Positions 3,384 through 58,877 of a DNA stretch of 64,000 nucleotides are shown piece after piece (positions within the stretch are counted from its first letter, which is position 1; the number at the start of each line of letters is the position of its first letter). Location of the stretch: positions 62,001-126,000 of the forward strand of contig JAIYAQ010000013.1 in assembly GCA_027488975.1 (NCBI GenBank), written 5' to 3'. The position numbers and the translations under genes are program-made. The DNA comes from Cyanobium sp. E1_MAG_00006 (GTDB lineage: Bacteria; Cyanobacteriota; Cyanobacteriia; PCC-6307; Cyanobiaceae). A model generated the notes under the pieces. It was not told the DNA's origin. It worked only from the letters and a program-made list of their open reading frames with translations, and made no database searches.

Positions 3384-4517
3384 TCAAGCCAGCGGTTTCG
3401 CTGGCGCAGCCGACTCCAGCACCGCCTCCGGCGGGATCCACATCGCATCGCCGTAGGAGAAGAAGCGGTAGCCCTCAGCCTTGGCCTGCTCGTAGAGATC
3501 GAGCAGGCCAAGGCGTCCGATCAGCGCACTCACCAGCAGCAGCAGCGAACTCTTCGGCAGGTGGAAGTTGGTGAGCAACCCCTGCACCACCGCGAAGCGA
3601 TAGCCCGGCTGGATCACCAGGTTCACCGGGCCGCAGTGGGGCTGCAGCTCGCCGCCATGAAGCTGGGCCACCGCCTCCAGGCTGCGCACGCTGGTGGTGC
3701 CGATGGCGATCACACGGCCACCACGCGCGCGACAGGCAGCCACCGCCGCCACCAGCGCAGGCGAGACCTCCACCCATTCACTGTGCAGCTCCAGATGGCG
3801 TAGGTCCTCCGTTTCCACCGGCCGGAAGGTGCCGAGGCCCACGTGCAGCGTCACCTCGGCCAGCTCCACGCCGCGCGCTCGGATCGCGCTCAGCAGCGCA
3901 TCGCTGAGATGCAGGCCCGCCGTTGGTGCCGCAACGGCTCCCGGGCGGGAGGCATAGCGGGTCTGATAGCGGCTGTCGTCGTCGTCGCTGTGCTGATGGA
4001 TGTAGGGCGGCAGCGGCATCGAGCCGTAGCGAGCCAGCAGCGCCTCGATCGCCTCGGGGCTGGTGCAGTCCGCCGGGAAGCGAACCACGCGTCCGCCGCT
4101 GGCCGGATCGATCGCCACGATCTCCAGGCCGATCGGCGGCTGATCCGGATGCTCCAGTTGCAGCACCTCCCCCGGCTGCAGACGCTTGGCGGGTCGGGCC
4201 AGGCAGACCCAGTCGCTGGCGGCGACAGGCTCAAGCACGAGCAGCTCCACAGCACCCCCAGTGGGGCGCCGCGCCTGCAGGCGAGCCTTGAGCACGCGCG
4301 TGTTGTTCACCACCACCAGATCGCCAGGCCTGAGCTCCTGCTGCAGATCCCACACCGTCAGGTGGCGGCAGGGGAAGGGGCTCGAGAGCTCCGGCGCAGG
4401 CGCCACTGCCAGCAGCCGTGCGGCATGGCGCGGCTCCACGGGGCGTTGGGCGATGAACGTCTCCGGCAGATCGAAGACATAGCTCGACAGGCGCTGATCG
4501 AGCGGATCAGTCGACAT
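3384..4517 (-). CDS. queA: S-adenosylmethionine:tRNA ribosyltransferase-isomerase
   Basis: QueA transfers and isomerises the ribosyl part of SAM onto 7-aminomethyl-7-deazaguanine in tRNA, giving epoxyqueuosine at the wobble base. The 377 residues match the usual family size. Recognisable segments are YDLP-like SYVFDLPETFIAQRP at the N-terminus, GDLVVVNNTRVLKAR, AAPTAGLHLSDALL, VTLHVGLGTFRPV and the C-terminal LLTNFHLPKSSLLLLVSAL. The ATG at 4517 gives the canonical N-terminus. It is 48 bases downstream of pdhC on the same strand and may be cotranscribed with it. Confidence 0.97.
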   Translation of the reverse strand: MSTDPLDQRLSSYVFDLPETFIAQRPVEPRHAARLLAVAPAPELSSPFPCRHLTVWDLQQELRPGDLVVVNNTRVLKARLQARRPTGGAVELLVLEPVAASDWVCLARPAKRLQPGEVLQLEHPDQPPIGLEIVAIDPASGGRVVRFPADCTSPEAIEALLARYGSMPLPPYIHQHSDDDDSRYQTRYASRPGAVAAPTAGLHLSDALLSAIRARGVELAEVTLHVGLGTFRPVETEDLRHLELHSEWVEVSPALVAAVAACRARGGRVIAIGTTSVRSLEAVAQLHGGELQPHCGPVNLVIQPGYRFAVVQGLLTNFHLPKSSLLLLVSALIGRLGLLDLYEQAKAEGYRFFSYGDAMWIPPEAVLESAAPAKPLA

Positions 4518-29222: not shown

Positions 29223-30539
29223 ATGGCCACCATGAGCAGCGCTGCCCCCCTGCCAAGCCCCGCCCGCGTGCTGGTGGTGGGCGGCGGCGGCCGGGAAAAC
29301 GCCCTGGCCTGGGCTCTGACTCGCTGCCACGGTGTGGAGCGCGTCTGGGTGGCCCCTGGCAACGGCGGCAGCGGCGAACTCAGTGGCGTGATGCAGCTGA
29401 CCATCGCCGAATCAGACCAGCCCGCCCTGTTGGCCGCCTGCAGCGAGCACGCCATCGACTTGGTGGTGGTGGGTCCGGAAGCCCCCCTGGCCGCCGGCCT
29501 GGCGGACCGTCTGCGTGAGGCCGGCTTTCCCGTGTTCGGCCCCGGTGCCGATGGTGCCCAGCTGGAGGCCAGCAAGCAGTGGGCCAAGGCGCTGATGCAG
29601 GAGGCGGGCGTGCCCACCGCCGGTTACTGGCCGGCCACCAGCCGCGAGCAGGCTCTGGCGGTGCTGGACGACCAGGGCCGGCCGCTGGTGGTCAAAGCCG
29701 ATGGCCTGGCAGCCGGCAAGGGTGTCACGGTGGCGGAAAGCGTGGCGGAGGCCCGCGCGGCCATCGAGGAGATCTTCGCCGGCCGTTTCGGCGAGGGGGA
29801 GGGGGCCTCGCTGGTGCTGGAGGAGCGCACCTACGGACCGGAGGTGTCAGTGTTTGCCCTCAGCGACGGTGAGCGGATGGTGCTGCTGCCGCCGGCGCAG
29901 GACCACAAACGCATCGGCGAGGGCGACACCGGCCCCAACACCGGCGGCATGGGGGCCTATGCCCCGGCGCCGCTGCTGGATGCCGCCGGTCTGGAACAGG
30001 TGCGACAGCTGGTGCTGGAGCCCACCCTGGCGGCCCTGCGAGCCCGCGGCATTGCCTATCGCGGCGTGATCTACGCCGGCCTGATGCTCACCGAGGCCGG
30101 CCCGAGCGTGATCGAGTTCAACTGCCGCTTCGGCGATCCGGAATGTGAAACCCTGATGCCACTGCTGGGTCCGGAGCTGGCCCAGGTGCTGCTGGCCTGC
30201 GCCGTGGGACGGCTGGATCAGGCCCCGGAGCTGACGATCGCCCCCCGCTGCAGCGCCTGCGTGATCGCCGCGGCCCAGGGTTACCCCGGTGAGATCCGCA
30301 AGGGCGATCCGATCGAGGGCGGCATCCGCAGCGACGATGACCTGCAGCTGTTCCACGCCGGCACCCGCCGCCTCGCGGATGGCAGCTGCGTCAGCAGCGG
30401 CGGCCGCGTGCTGGCGGTGGTGGCCCAGGCCGACGACTTTGATGCCGCCTTCGCCCGCGCCTACGCCGGCCTGGAGCAGGTGCACTTCGCGGGTATGACC
30501 GTCCGACGTGACATCGGCCATCAGGTGCGGCGCTCCTAG
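29223..30539 (+). CDS. purD: Phosphoribosylamine-glycine ligase
   Basis: PurD makes GAR, the second step of purine synthesis, with an ATP-grasp fold. Visible motifs are [68 protein letters not shown] and [19 protein letters not shown]. It has 438 residues; ATG 29223 is followed by a second in-frame ATG at codon 4. It is divergent from the purC-containing run and ten bases before nblS. Confidence 0.97.
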
Positions 30540-30549
30540 GCTCGCCGCC

Positions 30550-32598
30550 GTGACCAGCGCCAGCCCCTCCAATCCCGCCGGCGGCCAGATCGCCGCCAGC
30601 ACCCCAGCGAGGCCGGCCTGGTGGCTGCGGCTGAGCCGCTGGTGGGCGGAATTCAGCCTGCAGACTAAGCTGCTGGCGGCCGCCACCCTGGTGGTGAGCC
30701 TGATGATGACGGGCATCACCTTCTTCGCGCTCAACGGCATCCAGGCCGATGTGCGCATGAGCGACACCCGTTTCGCCCGCGATCTGGGCCTGCTGCTGGC
30801 CGCGAACGTGACGCCGCTGGTGGCCGAAGGCAACGACCGCGAGCTGGCGGCGGTAGCCGAGCGCTTCTGGCGCTCCAGCCGCAGCCTCCGCTACATCTTT
30901 TTCGCTGATCCCGACGGGATCATCTACCTGGGCATCCCGATCAGCGGCACCTCCGGCAGCAGCGAACTGCTGCTCAGCCGCCGTCTGGAGCTGCCGGCCG
31001 ATCTGGCCCGCCGGCCCCAGAACCCGCTGATCCGGCAGCACCTCACCCCGGACGGCCAGGTCACCGATGTGTTTGTGCCGCTGGTGAGCGGTGATCGCAC
31101 CCTCGGCGTGCTGGCCCTGGGAATCAACCCCAATGAAGCCGTCCTGGCCAGCGCAGCCCTCAGCCGCGAAGTCACCGTGGCGGTGTTCATCTCGATCTGG
31201 GTGCTGGTGATCCTCGGGGCGGTGTTCAACGCCCTCACCATCACCCGGCCGGTGAAGGAGCTACTGCGGGGCGTGCGCTCGATCGCCGGCGGCAATTTCG
31301 AGGCCCGCATCGCCCTGCCGGTGGGCGGTGAGCTGGGGGAGCTGCTGCAGGGCTTCAACACCATGGCCTCGCAGCTGGAGGACTACAAGGCGGCCAACAT
31401 CGAGGAGCTCACCGCCGCCCAGGTGAAACAGCAGTCGCTGATCGCCACGATGGCCGATGGGGCGCTGCTGCTTGATGCCGAGGGCCAGCTGGTGCTGGTG
31501 AACCCCACCGCCCGGCGCCTGTTCCGCTGGGAAGGCCGCAAGCTGGAGGGCACACCCCTGGCCGATGAGCTGCCGGAGGAGATCAGCCTTGAGCTGCAGG
31601 CCCCGCTCGAGGCGCTGCTGATCGGCGAGAAGGACAGCAGTGATGTGCGCATCAGCTTCGGCGAACCGGCGCGCACCCTGCGGATCGTGCTGCAGTCGGT
31701 GCGGGATGCCAGCGGCGAAACTCTCAAGGGCATCGCCGTGACGGTGCAGGACCTGACGCGCGAGGTGGAACTGAACGCCGCCCAGAGCCGGTTCATCAGC
31801 AACGTCTCCCACGAGCTGCGCACACCGCTGTTCAACATCAAGAGCTACGTGGAAACCCTCCACGACCTCGGCGATCAGCTCAGCGAAGAGGACAAGCGTG
31901 AATTCCTGGCGATCGCCAACGCCGAAACCGATCGGCTCACACGGCTCGTCAACGACGTGCTCGACCTTTCGCGCCTGGAAAGCGACCGGATCTGGAGCAT
32001 GGAACCGGTGGAGCTGCGGCCCGCCATGGAGCAGACCCTGCGCAACTACCGCCTCAACGCAAGCGACAAGGGCGTTGAGCTGATGCTGGAGGTGGATGAA
32101 CAGGTGCCGCGGGTGCGCGGGAACTGGGACCTGCTGCTGCAGGTGTTCGACAACCTGGTGGGCAATGGCCTCAAGTTCACGGCCAGCGGCGGCCACCTGG
32201 CCCTGCGTGCCTACCCGTGGCCCGACACCTGCCAGCTCGACCCGAGCACCGCCCCGAACCCCGCCAACCCCACCTGCACCCTCACGGCGCCGCTGCCGCG
32301 GCTGCGGGTGGAGATCGCCGACACGGGGTCCGGCATCTCACGCGAAGACCAGGATCGCATCTTCGAGCGCTTCTACCGGGTGGAGAACGCCGTGCACACC
32401 GAGGTGGGAACCGGCCTGGGCCTCTCAATCGTCCGCGGCATCCTCGACAAGCACGGCACCAGCGTGCGCATGGCCAGCGAGCTGGGGGTGGGCACCACCT
32501 TCTGGTTCGACCTACCGCTGGAGCAGGCCGACGAGGACGAACTGCGCATCGAAGCGGAGCGGCGCCTGCCTGAGGTGAGTGCCCTCAACGCCGGCTGA
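30550..32598 (+). CDS. nblS: NblS/Hik33-type sensor histidine kinase
   Basis: NblS senses high light and nutrient stress and controls phycobilisome degradation and photosynthesis genes. It starts at GTG 30550, giving 682 residues. The first membrane helix is at about 41-60 and the second at about 210-232 (VFISIWVLVILGAVFNAL), enclosing an extracytoplasmic sensor with FARDLGLLLAANVTPL. HAMP follows (TRPVKELLRGVRSIAGGNFEA), then PAS, then HisKA with the phospho-acceptor His421 in NVSHELRTPLFN, then HATPase with IADTGSGIS and GTGLGLSIVRG. An Asn/Pro/Thr-rich stretch interrupts the ATPase domain before the DTG motif. The cognate regulators are not in this window. Confidence 0.95.
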   Translation: MTSASPSNPAGGQIAASTPARPAWWLRLSRWWAEFSLQTKLLAAATLVVSLMMTGITFFALNGIQADVRMSDTRFARDLGLLLAANVTPLVAEGNDRELAAVAERFWRSSRSLRYIFFADPDGIIYLGIPISGTSGSSELLLSRRLELPADLARRPQNPLIRQHLTPDGQVTDVFVPLVSGDRTLGVLALGINPNEAVLASAALSREVTVAVFISIWVLVILGAVFNALTITRPVKELLRGVRSIAGGNFEARIALPVGGELGELLQGFNTMASQLEDYKAANIEELTAAQVKQQSLIATMADGALLLDAEGQLVLVNPTARRLFRWEGRKLEGTPLADELPEEISLELQAPLEALLIGEKDSSDVRISFGEPARTLRIVLQSVRDASGETLKGIAVTVQDLTREVELNAAQSRFISNVSHELRTPLFNIKSYVETLHDLGDQLSEEDKREFLAIANAETDRLTRLVNDVLDLSRLESDRIWSMEPVELRPAMEQTLRNYRLNASDKGVELMLEVDEQVPRVRGNWDLLLQVFDNLVGNGLKFTASGGHLALRAYPWPDTCQLDPSTAPNPANPTCTLTAPLPRLRVEIADTGSGISREDQDRIFERFYRVENAVHTEVGTGLGLSIVRGILDKHGTSVRMASELGVGTTFWFDLPLEQADEDELRIEAERRLPEVSALNAG

Positions 32599-55396: not shown

Positions 55397-56230
55397 TTGG
55401 CCATCCGCCGGCACCGGCTGCCTCGCTTCTGGCTGGTGCTCACGCTGGGATTGGTGGCTGCTGGAGTGGGCACGGCCTACTGGTGGGAGAAACAGTTGCC
55501 GCAACGGCTGGAACAGGCCGCCCGAAGCGGTCGGCTGGACGACTGCCTGCGCTACGGCGAACAGCTGGCCGCCCTGCGCTGGCTCGGGGGGCTGGCGCCG
55601 ATCGAGCAGGGGCGCTGCCGCCGGCTCAAGGCCGCCCAGCTCTGGAAACAGGGCAACTGGGCTGAGGCCCTGCGGCTGCAACAGCAGCTGGTGAACTCTG
55701 GGGCCAGCAGCAGCGGCGATCAACAGACGCTGCTGCGTTGGCAATCCCAGCTGGAAAGCCGTGCCCGCGAGCTCTACCGGGCGGGCGACCTGGAGGGAGC
55801 CCTCAGCGTGCTCACCAGCCTCAACGCCGCACACAATGCCGAAGGCACGGCCCTGGGCGACAGCCTCCGGGAGGACTGGAACCGCAACCGCTGGCAGAAG
55901 CAGCGGGCCGAACAGCTGATTCCCCAGAAACGCTGGTGGGAAGCCCTGGATGCCCTGAACCGCATCGAACATCCCTGGTGGAAGCGTCACACCGAGGCGC
56001 TGCGCCGCCAGGTGGAACAAGGCATCGAGGGCCTGCGCGACAGCAACCAACGGGAGCACGACGGCCACGGCGGCGGCCTCGACTCCAACGTGCCGGAGGA
56101 TCGCCTCAATGCGCTGATCACCGCCAAGATCGCCCGCGGCATGGACGACTGGCAGGCCTTCAGCAGCGCCTGCCGCGAACTGGGCGGCAAGGTGGTGGAA
56201 GCCGGCCCGGAGACCGCCTGCCGCCGCTGA
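55397..56230 (+). CDS. Membrane-anchored helical protein of unknown function
   Basis: The 277-residue protein is read from TTG 55397 (MAIRRHRLPRFWLVLTLGLV). A single N-terminal membrane helix (about 10-28) is followed by a soluble region of Arg/Glu/Gln-rich helices resembling tetratricopeptide-like pairs (LDDCLRYGEQLAALRWLGGL, LWKQGNWAEALRLQQQL, LYRAGDLEGALSVLTSL). A His/Gly-rich linker (REHDGHGGGLDSNVP) precedes a C-terminal segment. A scaffold role is possible; the family is not recognised. Confidence 0.75.
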   Translation: MAIRRHRLPRFWLVLTLGLVAAGVGTAYWWEKQLPQRLEQAARSGRLDDCLRYGEQLAALRWLGGLAPIEQGRCRRLKAAQLWKQGNWAEALRLQQQLVNSGASSSGDQQTLLRWQSQLESRARELYRAGDLEGALSVLTSLNAAHNAEGTALGDSLREDWNRNRWQKQRAEQLIPQKRWWEALDALNRIEHPWWKRHTEALRRQVEQGIEGLRDSNQREHDGHGGGLDSNVPEDRLNALITAKIARGMDDWQAFSSACRELGGKVVEAGPETACRR

Positions 56231-56271
56231 TCACGCGTGACAGGATGGGCAGCAACGATGCGCACCCTTGC

Positions 56272-56493
56272 ATGCAGCCGGGAGATCAGGTCAGGGTTTG
56301 CCAGAGCGTTGTGGTGTTCCATCACCCCGAGCACCGTGGCCAGGCCTTTGATCTTCAGGGCCAGCAGGGTGAAGTGCTGCAGGTTCTGAACGACTTCAAG
56401 GGAAGGCCGATCAGCCCAACCCTGCCGCTGATCGTGGCCTTCGGCCGCTTTCGGGCCCATTTTCGCTCCGATGAGCTGGAGCCGGTGGCCTGA
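56272..56493 (+). CDS. ftrV: Ferredoxin-thioredoxin reductase variable chain
   Basis: The 73 residues match FtrV, the SH3-like subunit of the enzyme that passes electrons from ferredoxin to thioredoxin in light regulation: DQVRVCQSVVVFHHPEHRGQ, then FDLQGQQGEV and FKGRPISPTLPL and FRAHFRSDELEPV. I start at ATG 56272. The partner is PetF, encoded 12 kb away; the catalytic chain ftrC is not in this window. Confidence 0.9.
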   Translation: MQPGDQVRVCQSVVVFHHPEHRGQAFDLQGQQGEVLQVLNDFKGRPISPTLPLIVAFGRFRAHFRSDELEPVA

Positions 56494-56504
56494 GCGCCAT
56501 CAGG

Positions 56505-57044
56505 TCAGGCGTCCTTCAGCAGGAAGACCCCCTCCTCGCCATCGATGCTCTCAAGGCAGAGGGCGATCACCTCCTGACGACTGGTGGGCACCACCCGGCC
56601 GCAGAAATCCGGCTGGATCGGCAATTCACGATGGCCGCGATCCACCATGGCCAGCAGGCGCACGCGCCGGGGGCGTCCCCAGGCCTGAAGAGCCTCCAGG
56701 GCGGCTCGCACGGTGCGACCGGTGAAAATCACGTCGTCCACCAGCACCACCTCACGGCCGTCGAGGCTGGCGGGCAGCTCCGTGGGTGTTGTCAACCGCG
56801 TGCCGATGCGCTCGAGATCGTCGCGGTGAAAGGTGGGATCGAGGCTGCCGCAATCGATCGGGTGGCCACATAGCTCTTCCAGCCTGTCCGCCAGAACCCT
56901 CGCCAGAGCGACACCGCGGGTGGGAATGCCCAGCAGGACCAGCTGGCGGCTATCGGCCACGCTCTCCAGCATCTGGGAGGCCAGACGGTTGAGCGTGCGG
57001 CCCAGCTCGTCGGCAGAGAGGATCTCAACGCGCTCGGCGGCCAT
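56505..57044 (-). CDS. pyrR: PyrR bifunctional regulator / uracil phosphoribosyltransferase
   Basis: The 179 residues from ATG 57044 match PyrR: ILSADELGRTLNRLASQMLE, VLLGIPTRGVALARVLADRL, and the PRPP-binding loop VVLVDDVIFTGRTVRAALEAL. HRELPIQPDFCGRVVPTSR is the PyrR-specific block. In Bacillus it binds pyr leader RNA; whether it does so here is unknown, since no pyr operon attenuator lies in the window. Confidence 0.94.
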   Translation of the reverse strand: MAAERVEILSADELGRTLNRLASQMLESVADSRQLVLLGIPTRGVALARVLADRLEELCGHPIDCGSLDPTFHRDDLERIGTRLTTPTELPASLDGREVVLVDDVIFTGRTVRAALEALQAWGRPRRVRLLAMVDRGHRELPIQPDFCGRVVPTSRQEVIALCLESIDGEEGVFLLKDA

Positions 57045-57077
57045 GGCAGGAGCTATGGGACGTGATCTTAACGGGAT

Positions 57078-57125
57078 CGGCGTGATCCCATGTGCACAAA
57101 AGCTGACCCGCCTGGGATCACGCCG
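57078..57125. promoter_or_regulatory. 13-bp inverted repeat between divergent pyrR and gpmI
   Basis: CGGCGTGATCCCA (57078-57090) is the exact inverse of TGGGATCACGCCG (57113-57125), with 22 bases between. The spacer begins with the 8-bp palindrome TGTGCACA (57091-57098). CGGGATCGG occurs as a direct repeat at 57072-57080 and 57124-57132. It lies in the 150-base shared promoter region. Confidence 0.7.
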
Positions 57126-57194
57126 GGATCGGTTCAGGGCTCGCTGTAAGTTTGGATTGTGCAGGTGTTGCAGTAGCGAGGCAGGATCAACCGG

Positions 57195-58877
57195 GTGACC
57201 GCTGTACCGTCCACCGATCAAGGTTCCAGTCGCGAGAGCAACCGGTTCGGCTCAGGCAGCCACGATTCCGGTTCTCCCAGAGGCTCCGCCCCAACAGCAC
57301 CTGTGGTGCTTTGCATTTTGGATGGCTGGGGCTACCGCCCCGATGACGAGCACAACGCCATCCGTGCCGCACAGACACCGGTGATGGATGCTCTCTGGCA
57401 TGCCTATCCCCACACCCTGATCCAAGCCAGCGGTGCTGATGTTGGCTTACCCGACGATCAGATGGGTAACTCTGAGGTGGGCCACCTCACCATCGGCGCC
57501 GGCCGGATCATTCGCCAGGAACTCGTGCGCATCGGCCAGGCCGTGCGCAACGGCAGCATCGCCAGCAACCCAGAACTCAATGCCCTCGCCGACCGGCTGC
57601 TGAGCAGCGGTGGCACGCTCCATCTAATCGGGCTCTGCTCCGACGGCGGCGTCCACAGCCACGTGGATCACCTCGGTGGCCTGCTGCGCTGGGCCGCGGC
57701 CCGCGGCCTCAAGGATGTCTGCATCCACGTCATCACCGATGGCCGGGATACTCCAACCCAGAGCGCACCCGGCTTCCTGGCCACCATCGAGAGCCAGATC
57801 GCCGAAGCAGGGGTCGGCCGGATCAGCACCCTCTGCGGGCGCTACTGGGCGATGGACCGCGACAACCGCTGGGAGCGCACCGAGAAGGCCTACCGCCTGT
57901 TCACCGAGGAGGGGGAGATCAGCACTGCCACGCCGCTGCATGTGCTGCAGAGCTCCTACGCCCAGGATGTCACCGACGAATTCCTCGAGCCCACCCGCCT
58001 CGGCAGCGGTGCCATCAGCCCCGGCGACGGCCTGGTGTGCTTCAACTTCCGCCCGGATCGCGTGCGTCAGCTGATGCGCGCCCTGGTGGTGCCCAGCTTC
58101 GATGCCTTCCCCCGCCAGCTGATCGAAGGCCTGCAGGTGGTCACCTTCACCCAGTACGAGGCCGGCCTGCCGGTGGCTGTGGCCTTCCCGCCCGAATCCC
58201 TCGACGGTCTGCTCGGCCAGGTGGTGTCCGAGTCCGGGCTGCGCCAGTTCCGCACGGCTGAAACTGAGAAATACCCGCACGTCACCTACTTCATGAACGG
58301 CGGCATCGAGCAGCCCTACCCCGGTGAAGATCGGCACCTCGTGCCCTCGCCGCGGGTGGCCACCTACGACCAGGCACCAGCGATGTCGGCGGAGCAGCTC
58401 ACCGACCACTGCATCAACGCGATCAGTAAGGGGATCTATTCCTTGGTGGTGATCAACTACGCCAATCCCGACATGGTCGGCCACACCGGTGAGATGGCCG
58501 CCACCGTCGAGGCCATCGGCACCGTGGACCGCAGCGTGGGACGCCTGATGGAAGCCACCAACCGCATGGGCGGCACCCTGCTGGTGACAGCTGATCACGG
58601 CAACGCCGAATTGATGGAAGGCCCTGATGGCCGCCCCTGGACTGCCCACACCACCAATCCGGTGCCGGTGATCCTCGTGGAGGGCGAGAAGCGCAAGCTG
58701 CCCGGCCACGGCAATGCGGTGCAACTGCGCGAGGGCGGCGGCCTGGCGGACATCGCTCCCACCCTGCTGGAGATTCTCGGCCTGCCCCAGCCGTCCCGCA
58801 TGACCGGCCAGTCGCTGGTCGTGCCGTTGGGGCAGCCTGCTCTGGCCAGCCGCATCCCCCAGACCCTCGGGGTCTGA
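57195..58877 (+). CDS. gpmI: 2,3-bisphosphoglycerate-independent phosphoglycerate mutase
   Basis: GpmI interconverts 3- and 2-phosphoglycerate using manganese and a phosphoserine intermediate. The catalytic Ser lies in [51 protein letters not shown] and [13 protein letters not shown] are metal and substrate motifs. The frame from GTG 57195 gives 560 residues with a Ser/Gly-rich leader of about 33 residues before the catalytic fold; a later GTG near 57302 would remove it. Confidence 0.95.

Follow-up and report, generated by a model that had tools for sequence, protein, structure and literature searches.

The window, by which we mean the whole stretch of 64,000 nucleotides that was analysed, belongs to a genome of 2.7 Mb in 40 contigs, and a PyrR search (best 80 of 577 matches) gave Vulcanococcus and uncultured Synechococcaceae as its nearest named relatives, which places it among the picocyanobacteria. 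It contains the divergent genes pyrR and gpmI, separated by an interval of 150 bp (57045-57194). The first-pass annotation, made from the letters alone, had recognized this 150-base divergent region, and NCBIfam matches confirmed both gene identities, with pyrR encoded on the minus and gpmI on the plus strand (Table 1). Within the interval lies an inverted repeat whose arms are complementary at 13 of 13 positions (100%) around a spacer of 22 nt. The first bases of the spacer form the 8-bp palindrome TGTGCACA (57091-57098), and the two copies of a 9-bp direct repeat stand on both sides, overlapping the outer arm ends by 3 and 2 bases. Perfect arms, palindrome and direct repeat had all been described at first pass, and all three were found as described.

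Table 1. Features of the pyrR-gpmI region, in positions of the window
Feature	Position	Strand	Basis or remark
pyrR	56505-57044	-	NCBIfam NF003549, E 2.5e-74; ATG at 57044
Candidate pyrR -10, TAAGAT	57065-57070	-	Sequence; weak
Left copy of 9-bp direct repeat, CGGGATCGG	57072-57080	+	
Left arm of 13-bp inverted repeat, CGGCGTGATCCCA	57078-57090		Sequence
Conserved box, consensus TGTnnCCAAARSCTGACG, here TGTGCACAAAAGCTGACC	57091-57108	+	Inside repeat spacer; candidate regulator site
Right arm of 13-bp inverted repeat, TGGGATCACGCCG	57113-57125		Sequence
Right copy of 9-bp direct repeat, CGGGATCGG	57124-57132	+	
Weak -35 position of gpmI, CGGGAT	57124-57129	+	Putative; 17 bp before -10
Conserved GTARGTT	57146-57152	+	Sequence comparison
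Likely -10 of gpmI, TARGTT	57147-57152	+	Inferred from the TAN3T form of the cyanobacterial -10
gpmI, 2,3-bisphosphoglycerate-independent phosphoglycerate mutase	57195-58877	+	NCBIfam TIGR01307, E 2.5e-205; GTG at 57195

The 13-bp repeat is real and locally beyond chance. A perfect inverted repeat of at least 13 bp (loop 3-60) appeared in 0 of 2000 dinucleotide shuffles of the 150-bp interval and one of at least 12 bp in 1 of 2000, while five shuffles of the whole window produced no 13-bp repeat and a mean of 0.6 nested counts of at least 12 bp. Elsewhere in the 64 kb, inverted repeats of at least 12 bp are confined to a single place (3478-3514), where perfect arms of 15 bp enclose a 7-nt loop, a longer repeat than the one between pyrR and gpmI. 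Taken alone, the palindrome and the direct repeat are each unremarkable, the former because TGTGCACA is the version of a conserved TGTnnCCA carried by this genome and its nearest relative, the latter because GGGATC recurs in relatives.

To see what is kept at this locus, we turned to the same-genus set, in which a PyrR search located 23 relatives, a 24th (G017) giving a weak match only. One relative (L024), the sequence of which stops 38 nt upstream of pyrR, was left out, and the comparison thus covers 22 relatives and the own genome. Two blocks are common to all 23 intervals, namely TGTnnCCAAAAGCTGACG or a near form of it (57091-57108) and GTRGGTT or GTAAGTT (57146-57152). The distance from AAAAGCTGAC to the second block is 48 nt in 23 of 23; pyrR lies 28-279 nt from AAAAGCTGAC, and the gpmI start 92-97 nt from it, with all three reading frames represented. 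The repeat fails the test of conservation in relatives that had been set at first pass, the perfect 13-bp arms being present in the own genome only (n = 23). As judged by these intervals, the conserved object is the box together with GTARGTT, not the inverted repeat.

The same arrangement extends to the wider collection of named loci, which comprises the best 80 of 577 from the PyrR search. There, gpmI is divergent to pyrR in 79 of 80, the exception (L053) stopping at a contig end, and a loose pattern found the box plus a GTA-type element inside the pyrR-gpmI interval in 73 of the 80, or in 74 when the whole locus was scanned; it matched 1 of 7900 mononucleotide shuffles of these intervals. 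Across the 73 loci the box-to-element spacing has a mean of 47.03 nt (sd 0.68, range 46-50 nt), and the distance from pyrR to the box runs from 20 to 1178 nt. That from the GTA-type element to the gpmI start goes up to 300 nt, the lowest value, -10, coming from extrapolated starts. Of the six loci missed by the whole-locus scan, inspected by eye, L110 and L116 possess the box but show GTTAACTTG where GTARGTT would stand, the boxes of L123 and L125 are altered, L053 ends with its contig, and L066 offered no visible cause. One record (L068), titled Bifidobacterium breve, carries a cyanobacterial-looking pyrR-gpmI locus with 82% PyrR identity, and its title is probably wrong.

How often does the element occur in a genome? 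A sequence-only model (R1) was built from an alignment of 41 elements, that is, the own one and 40 from loci with the commonest spacing, near-duplicates removed. R1 matched the element once in each of the 25 genus genomes, with E between 1.4e-8 and 3.3e-15; in two of them (G021 and G017) the position beside gpmI is unconfirmed. These main matches are to be expected, since some of the searched genomes contributed elements to the model, and the informative part is the absence of second copies: with 150 candidates scored in each of the 25 genomes, the next best match in any had an E of 0.04. In 201 family genomes, where strict matches were counted irrespective of neighbouring genes, the strict box alone was found in 56, one match each (reversed control, 2), and a gapped pattern allowing 28-50 nt in 54, again once per genome (the reversed control matched 9 times, in 8 genomes). 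Of the 54 gapped matches, 50 are 54-56 nt long; those in G084, G136, G255 and G118 have other lengths, and some may be due to chance. The strict patterns miss Prochlorococcus-type variants. When one mismatch was allowed in GCCAAAAGCTGACG, which covers part of the box, matches appeared in 62 of the 101 family genomes scanned, at up to 5 places in a single genome, with a reversed control that was also frequent. There is, then, no second strong copy of the box in the genomes searched, and weak sites may exist elsewhere in them. Of 54 genomes searched outside the family, 25 yielded gpmI loci; neither the element in the 400 nt before gpmI nor pyrR in the fetched flank was found in any of these 25, and many of them have, by eye, a GGTATGAT-like -10 instead. 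Three of four further in-family gpmI loci have the element, and the fourth (L133) lacks it by the pattern used.

We consider it rather probable that this element belongs to the gpmI promoter, with TARGTT as the -10, a poor -35 and a box bound by an activator, the repeat being a recent by-product. A box and GTARGTT about 47 nt apart were found upstream of gpmI, as a family-wide promoter element of this gene should show. The putative -10 takes the TAN3T form that is stated, in a passage of PMC2633013, for CRP promoters of cyanobacteria; at the -35 position only GG is fairly conserved among the loci, and a simple sigma-70 scan returned no promoter-like site. A start about 7 nt after TARGTT, as predicted, would set the box at about -68 to -51. 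Because a weak -35 is joined to an upstream site at a fixed distance, the arrangement suggests an activator at the box. The element more likely acts as DNA than as mRNA, since the plus strand of the 41 aligned elements folded into no consensus pairs (0) and since its distance to the start of gpmI is variable, reaching 300 nt. In the mechanism that we propose, the Cyanobiaceae gpmI promoter would consist of the TARGTT -10, the poor -35 and the upstream box at a nearly fixed distance, and an activator protein would bind the box and contact RNA polymerase from about -60. The older right arm would have been copied in reverse to a place beside the box, perhaps through template switching, giving the left arm, and the old box would thereby have come to lie in the loop of a new hairpin. 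Against this proposal stand the negative sigma-70 scan, the 7 of the 80 loci (best 80 of 577) that the loose pattern left unmatched, and the circumstance that a shared regulator would not usually have so information-rich a box in one strong copy only.

Which protein might bind there was approached through known consensus sequences. None of the 74 elements contains an exact NtcA site, for which the consensus is GTAN8TAC. Nor was there, in the same 74, a CRP site, either as exact TGTGAN6TCACA or as GTGAN6TCAC, or an exact LexA pattern (GTACN4GTAC or CTAN9CTA); these CRP and LexA patterns, and the SphR Pho box consensus of tandem CTTAACCT with 3-bp linkers, are as given in the literature. Activator-dependent cyanobacterial promoters of the NtcA or CRP type resemble the proposed one in a TAN3T -10 (stated for CRP promoters in PMC2633013), in a -35 that is weak or absent, and in a regulator site whose upstream distance is constant; unlike them, the box here carries no exact NtcA, CRP or LexA pattern, would sit near -60 and has no second strong copy. 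No paper on the box or on a gpmI promoter element was found in the literature searched; a term search of the main texts of PMC2633013, PMC3091678 and PMC1906773 gave no phosphoglycerate mutase, pgm, gpm or pyrR, and one of PMC7368042 no pyrR, gpmI or pgm.

As regards the repeat itself, its two arms appear to differ in age. Perfect inverted repeats of at least 8 bp (loop 3-59) occur in the own interval (13 bp) and in those of L035, L038, L044 and L045 (8 bp each), and none in the remaining 18 of the 23 sequences; in L035 and L038 both arms lie at one side of the box, and in L045 they flank it. In 21 sequences (without L044 and L045), the longest exact complement between the left and the right of the box is 13 in the own genome, 7 in L023 and 0-8 in the other 19. 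L023, the nearest relative (96% PyrR identity), has an imperfect version of the repeat, with GCGCGCGATCCCA opposite an unchanged right arm. At the right-arm place it agrees at 13 of 13 bases, and 10 of the 21 other relatives agree at 9-11 of 13; at the left-arm place the corresponding values are 10 of 13 for L023 and 2-8 of 13 for the other 21. The best left-arm match within 45 nt is 5-10 in 21 relatives, as against a shuffle mean of 7.1. On this comparison the right arm is older than the left arm, the match of which in relatives is mostly at chance level, and for these two reasons the 13-bp repeat is probably a lineage-specific change.

The own genome has the 12 nt GGCGTGATCCCA where L036 and L025 have 6 nt, and these 12 nt of the left arm match the right arm exactly in reverse complement. 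Taken as a whole the left arm is lineage-specific, and it was perhaps copied from the right arm; a single template switch, perhaps the source of the repeat, would account for this. Template switching makes perfect stems according to Monttinen and Loytynoja (2022, PMC8794818), and the hairpins treated there likewise have a perfect stem confined to one branch and an arm that is the reverse complement of an older neighbouring arm; they belong to RNA genes, whereas the present case lies in a promoter region and the event would be deduced from a single lineage compared with the relative closest to it. The left arm may nevertheless be older, or convergent, in part, because CTGATCCCC stands one base off the left-arm place in L038 and L035 (agreement at 10 and 8 of 13 bases), and ATCCCC or ACCCA occurs near it in L033, L037 and L041. 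An ordinary insertion together with substitution could also have made the left arm.

The first-pass annotation was correct in what it observed and mostly wrong in the function that it read into the repeat. The region matters through the conserved promoter box in the spacer, not through the repeat, and a striking, probably young hairpin can be set apart from an element that selection has kept. The hairpin offers a small example of how mutational accident can account for an eye-catching perfect repeat seen in a single genome. The box with its fixed spacing provides a concrete and testable candidate for a control site of gpmI in picocyanobacteria. Cyanobiaceae, the picocyanobacteria, are ecologically major photosynthetic bacteria, and the gpmI enzyme leads Calvin cycle carbon into lower glycolysis.

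Several other readings of the region have to be weighed against the gpmI promoter. The inverted repeat itself might be a lineage-specific operator or a functional cruciform, as its perfection over 13 bp (unmatched in 2000 shuffles), its span across the box and the -35 region of gpmI, and the shorter 8-bp GATCCC repeats in the intervals of L035, L038 and L045 would suggest; we regard this as very unlikely, given that the 13-bp repeat is missing from 22 relatives, the nearest of which has a differing left side opposite the unchanged right arm, and that the sole other TGATCCC..GGGATCA repeat (6-36 nt) in the genome lies just 3' of a glnA-like gene and not in a promoter. Still less probable is the reading of the repeat as a pyrR leader RNA of the PyrR-type attenuator kind or as an intrinsic terminator. 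A hairpin is indeed predicted on both strands of the 150 nt (z -1.55 minus, -2.97 plus), and a weak terminator-like match occurs on the minus strand (57120-57104), overlapping the box and the right arm; this match, however, has a stem of only 6 pairs and draws on CTTTTG, a conserved part of the box, and the 13-bp arms enclose a 22-nt loop with no T-run directly after them. A pyrR leader structure, which had been offered at first pass as an alternative, is unlikely in view of the absence of any RF00515 match when 56000-58000 was scanned with cmscan at E up to 10 (six hits, all to other families), the lack of conserved pairs in the plus-strand fold given above, and the two relatives in which no more than 28 nt separate the beginning of AAAAGCTGAC from the start codon of pyrR. 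At first pass the structure was said not to resemble the Bacillus PyrR binding loop. What the two have in common is an adjacent pyrR and a possible hairpin; the repeat here differs in matching neither RF00515 nor any conserved RNA structure (plus strand), in being unconserved, and in lying probably upstream of the pyrR start site, where TAAGAT as the pyrR -10 would set it.

The idea that one operator serves both genes fared better in part, in that a conserved cis-element does exist in the divergent promoter region; the inverted repeat, found in one genome of 23, is not that element. A single regulator might control pyrR and gpmI jointly. In the fuller form of this idea, the box would be shared by the divergent pair: gpmI would use it as an upstream activator site, pyrR as its -35 region or as an operator, with one protein setting both. 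This agrees with the divergent order of pyrR and gpmI in 79 of 80 loci (best 80 of 577) and the place of the box between them, and with the minus-strand TTTTGG/TTGGCC of the box standing, by eye, 17-19 bp from hexamers of the TACCAT, TAGGAT or TACGAT type in several relatives. The distance from the box to a possible pyrR -10 is, however, not fixed, and a fitting hexamer (TAAGAT-type, 10-60 nt upstream of the box) was present in only 36 of 73 loci, a count made without a chance control; the box lies 20-1178 nt from the pyrR start in these 73, and in the window extra bases shift the hexamer out of register (23 nt against about 17, by eye). We hold the shared site to be rather unlikely, and give a decidedly slim chance to the further idea that a regulator found in Cyanobiaceae alone has the box as its sole or main target and links gpmI, for lower glycolysis, with pyrR, for pyrimidine salvage. 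The box is kept from freshwater Vulcanococcus to Prochlorococcus, in some strains of which it is a true dyad. By eye, it extends as the dyad AGCTGACnnAAGTCAGC in three Prochlorococcus loci (L119, L120, L129), L131, also from Prochlorococcus, has the form CTAACTTAAGTTAG with both halves changed, and L124 has a shorter form.

The genome-wide search for half-sites, proposed together with the operator at first pass, brought no genome-wide operator to light. Exact GGCGTGATCCCA occurs at 4 places in the own genome, comprising both arms and 2 single arms elsewhere. With up to one mismatch it occurs at 31 places against 5 for the reversed sequence, an excess that we give no weight, because the reversed control contains CTAG in place of GATC and is a poor one. 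A half-site regulon was rejected on this basis, the yield being the 2 exact single half-sites and the one similar repeat 3' of the glnA-like gene; the latter, TGATCCCAGC..GCTGGGATCA, is located at the stop of that ORF (named by eye) on contig 11 of the own genome (L162, 1501-1531).

The hexamer GGGATC is itself widespread at this locus. GGGATC or GATCCC occurs 36 times in the 23 pyrR-gpmI intervals, against about 2 expected at equal base frequencies. Several relatives have, at -19 from the box, a counterpart of the GGGATC in the left direct-repeat copy, and those of the right copy (+27) and of the right arm (+16) are common to several relatives. In several intervals the hexamer thus stands twice, at +16 and at +27 relative to the box, with 11 nt from one to the next. 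A search for the tandem GGGATCN5GGGATC gave 56 places, spread over 23 of the 25 genus genomes, and a single one for the reversed control. As a second operator it was rejected, no promoter regulon being seen in 30 fetched loci by a crude test: 26 of the 30 lie inside ORFs under a naive choice of ORF, and at least 2 of these 26 (L169 and L193) are the pyrR-gpmI interval itself. Elsewhere in the window, TGATCCCGACGGGATCA (30906-30922) forms a near-perfect palindrome within an ORF (30508-32598) that is, by eye, sensor histidine kinase-like.
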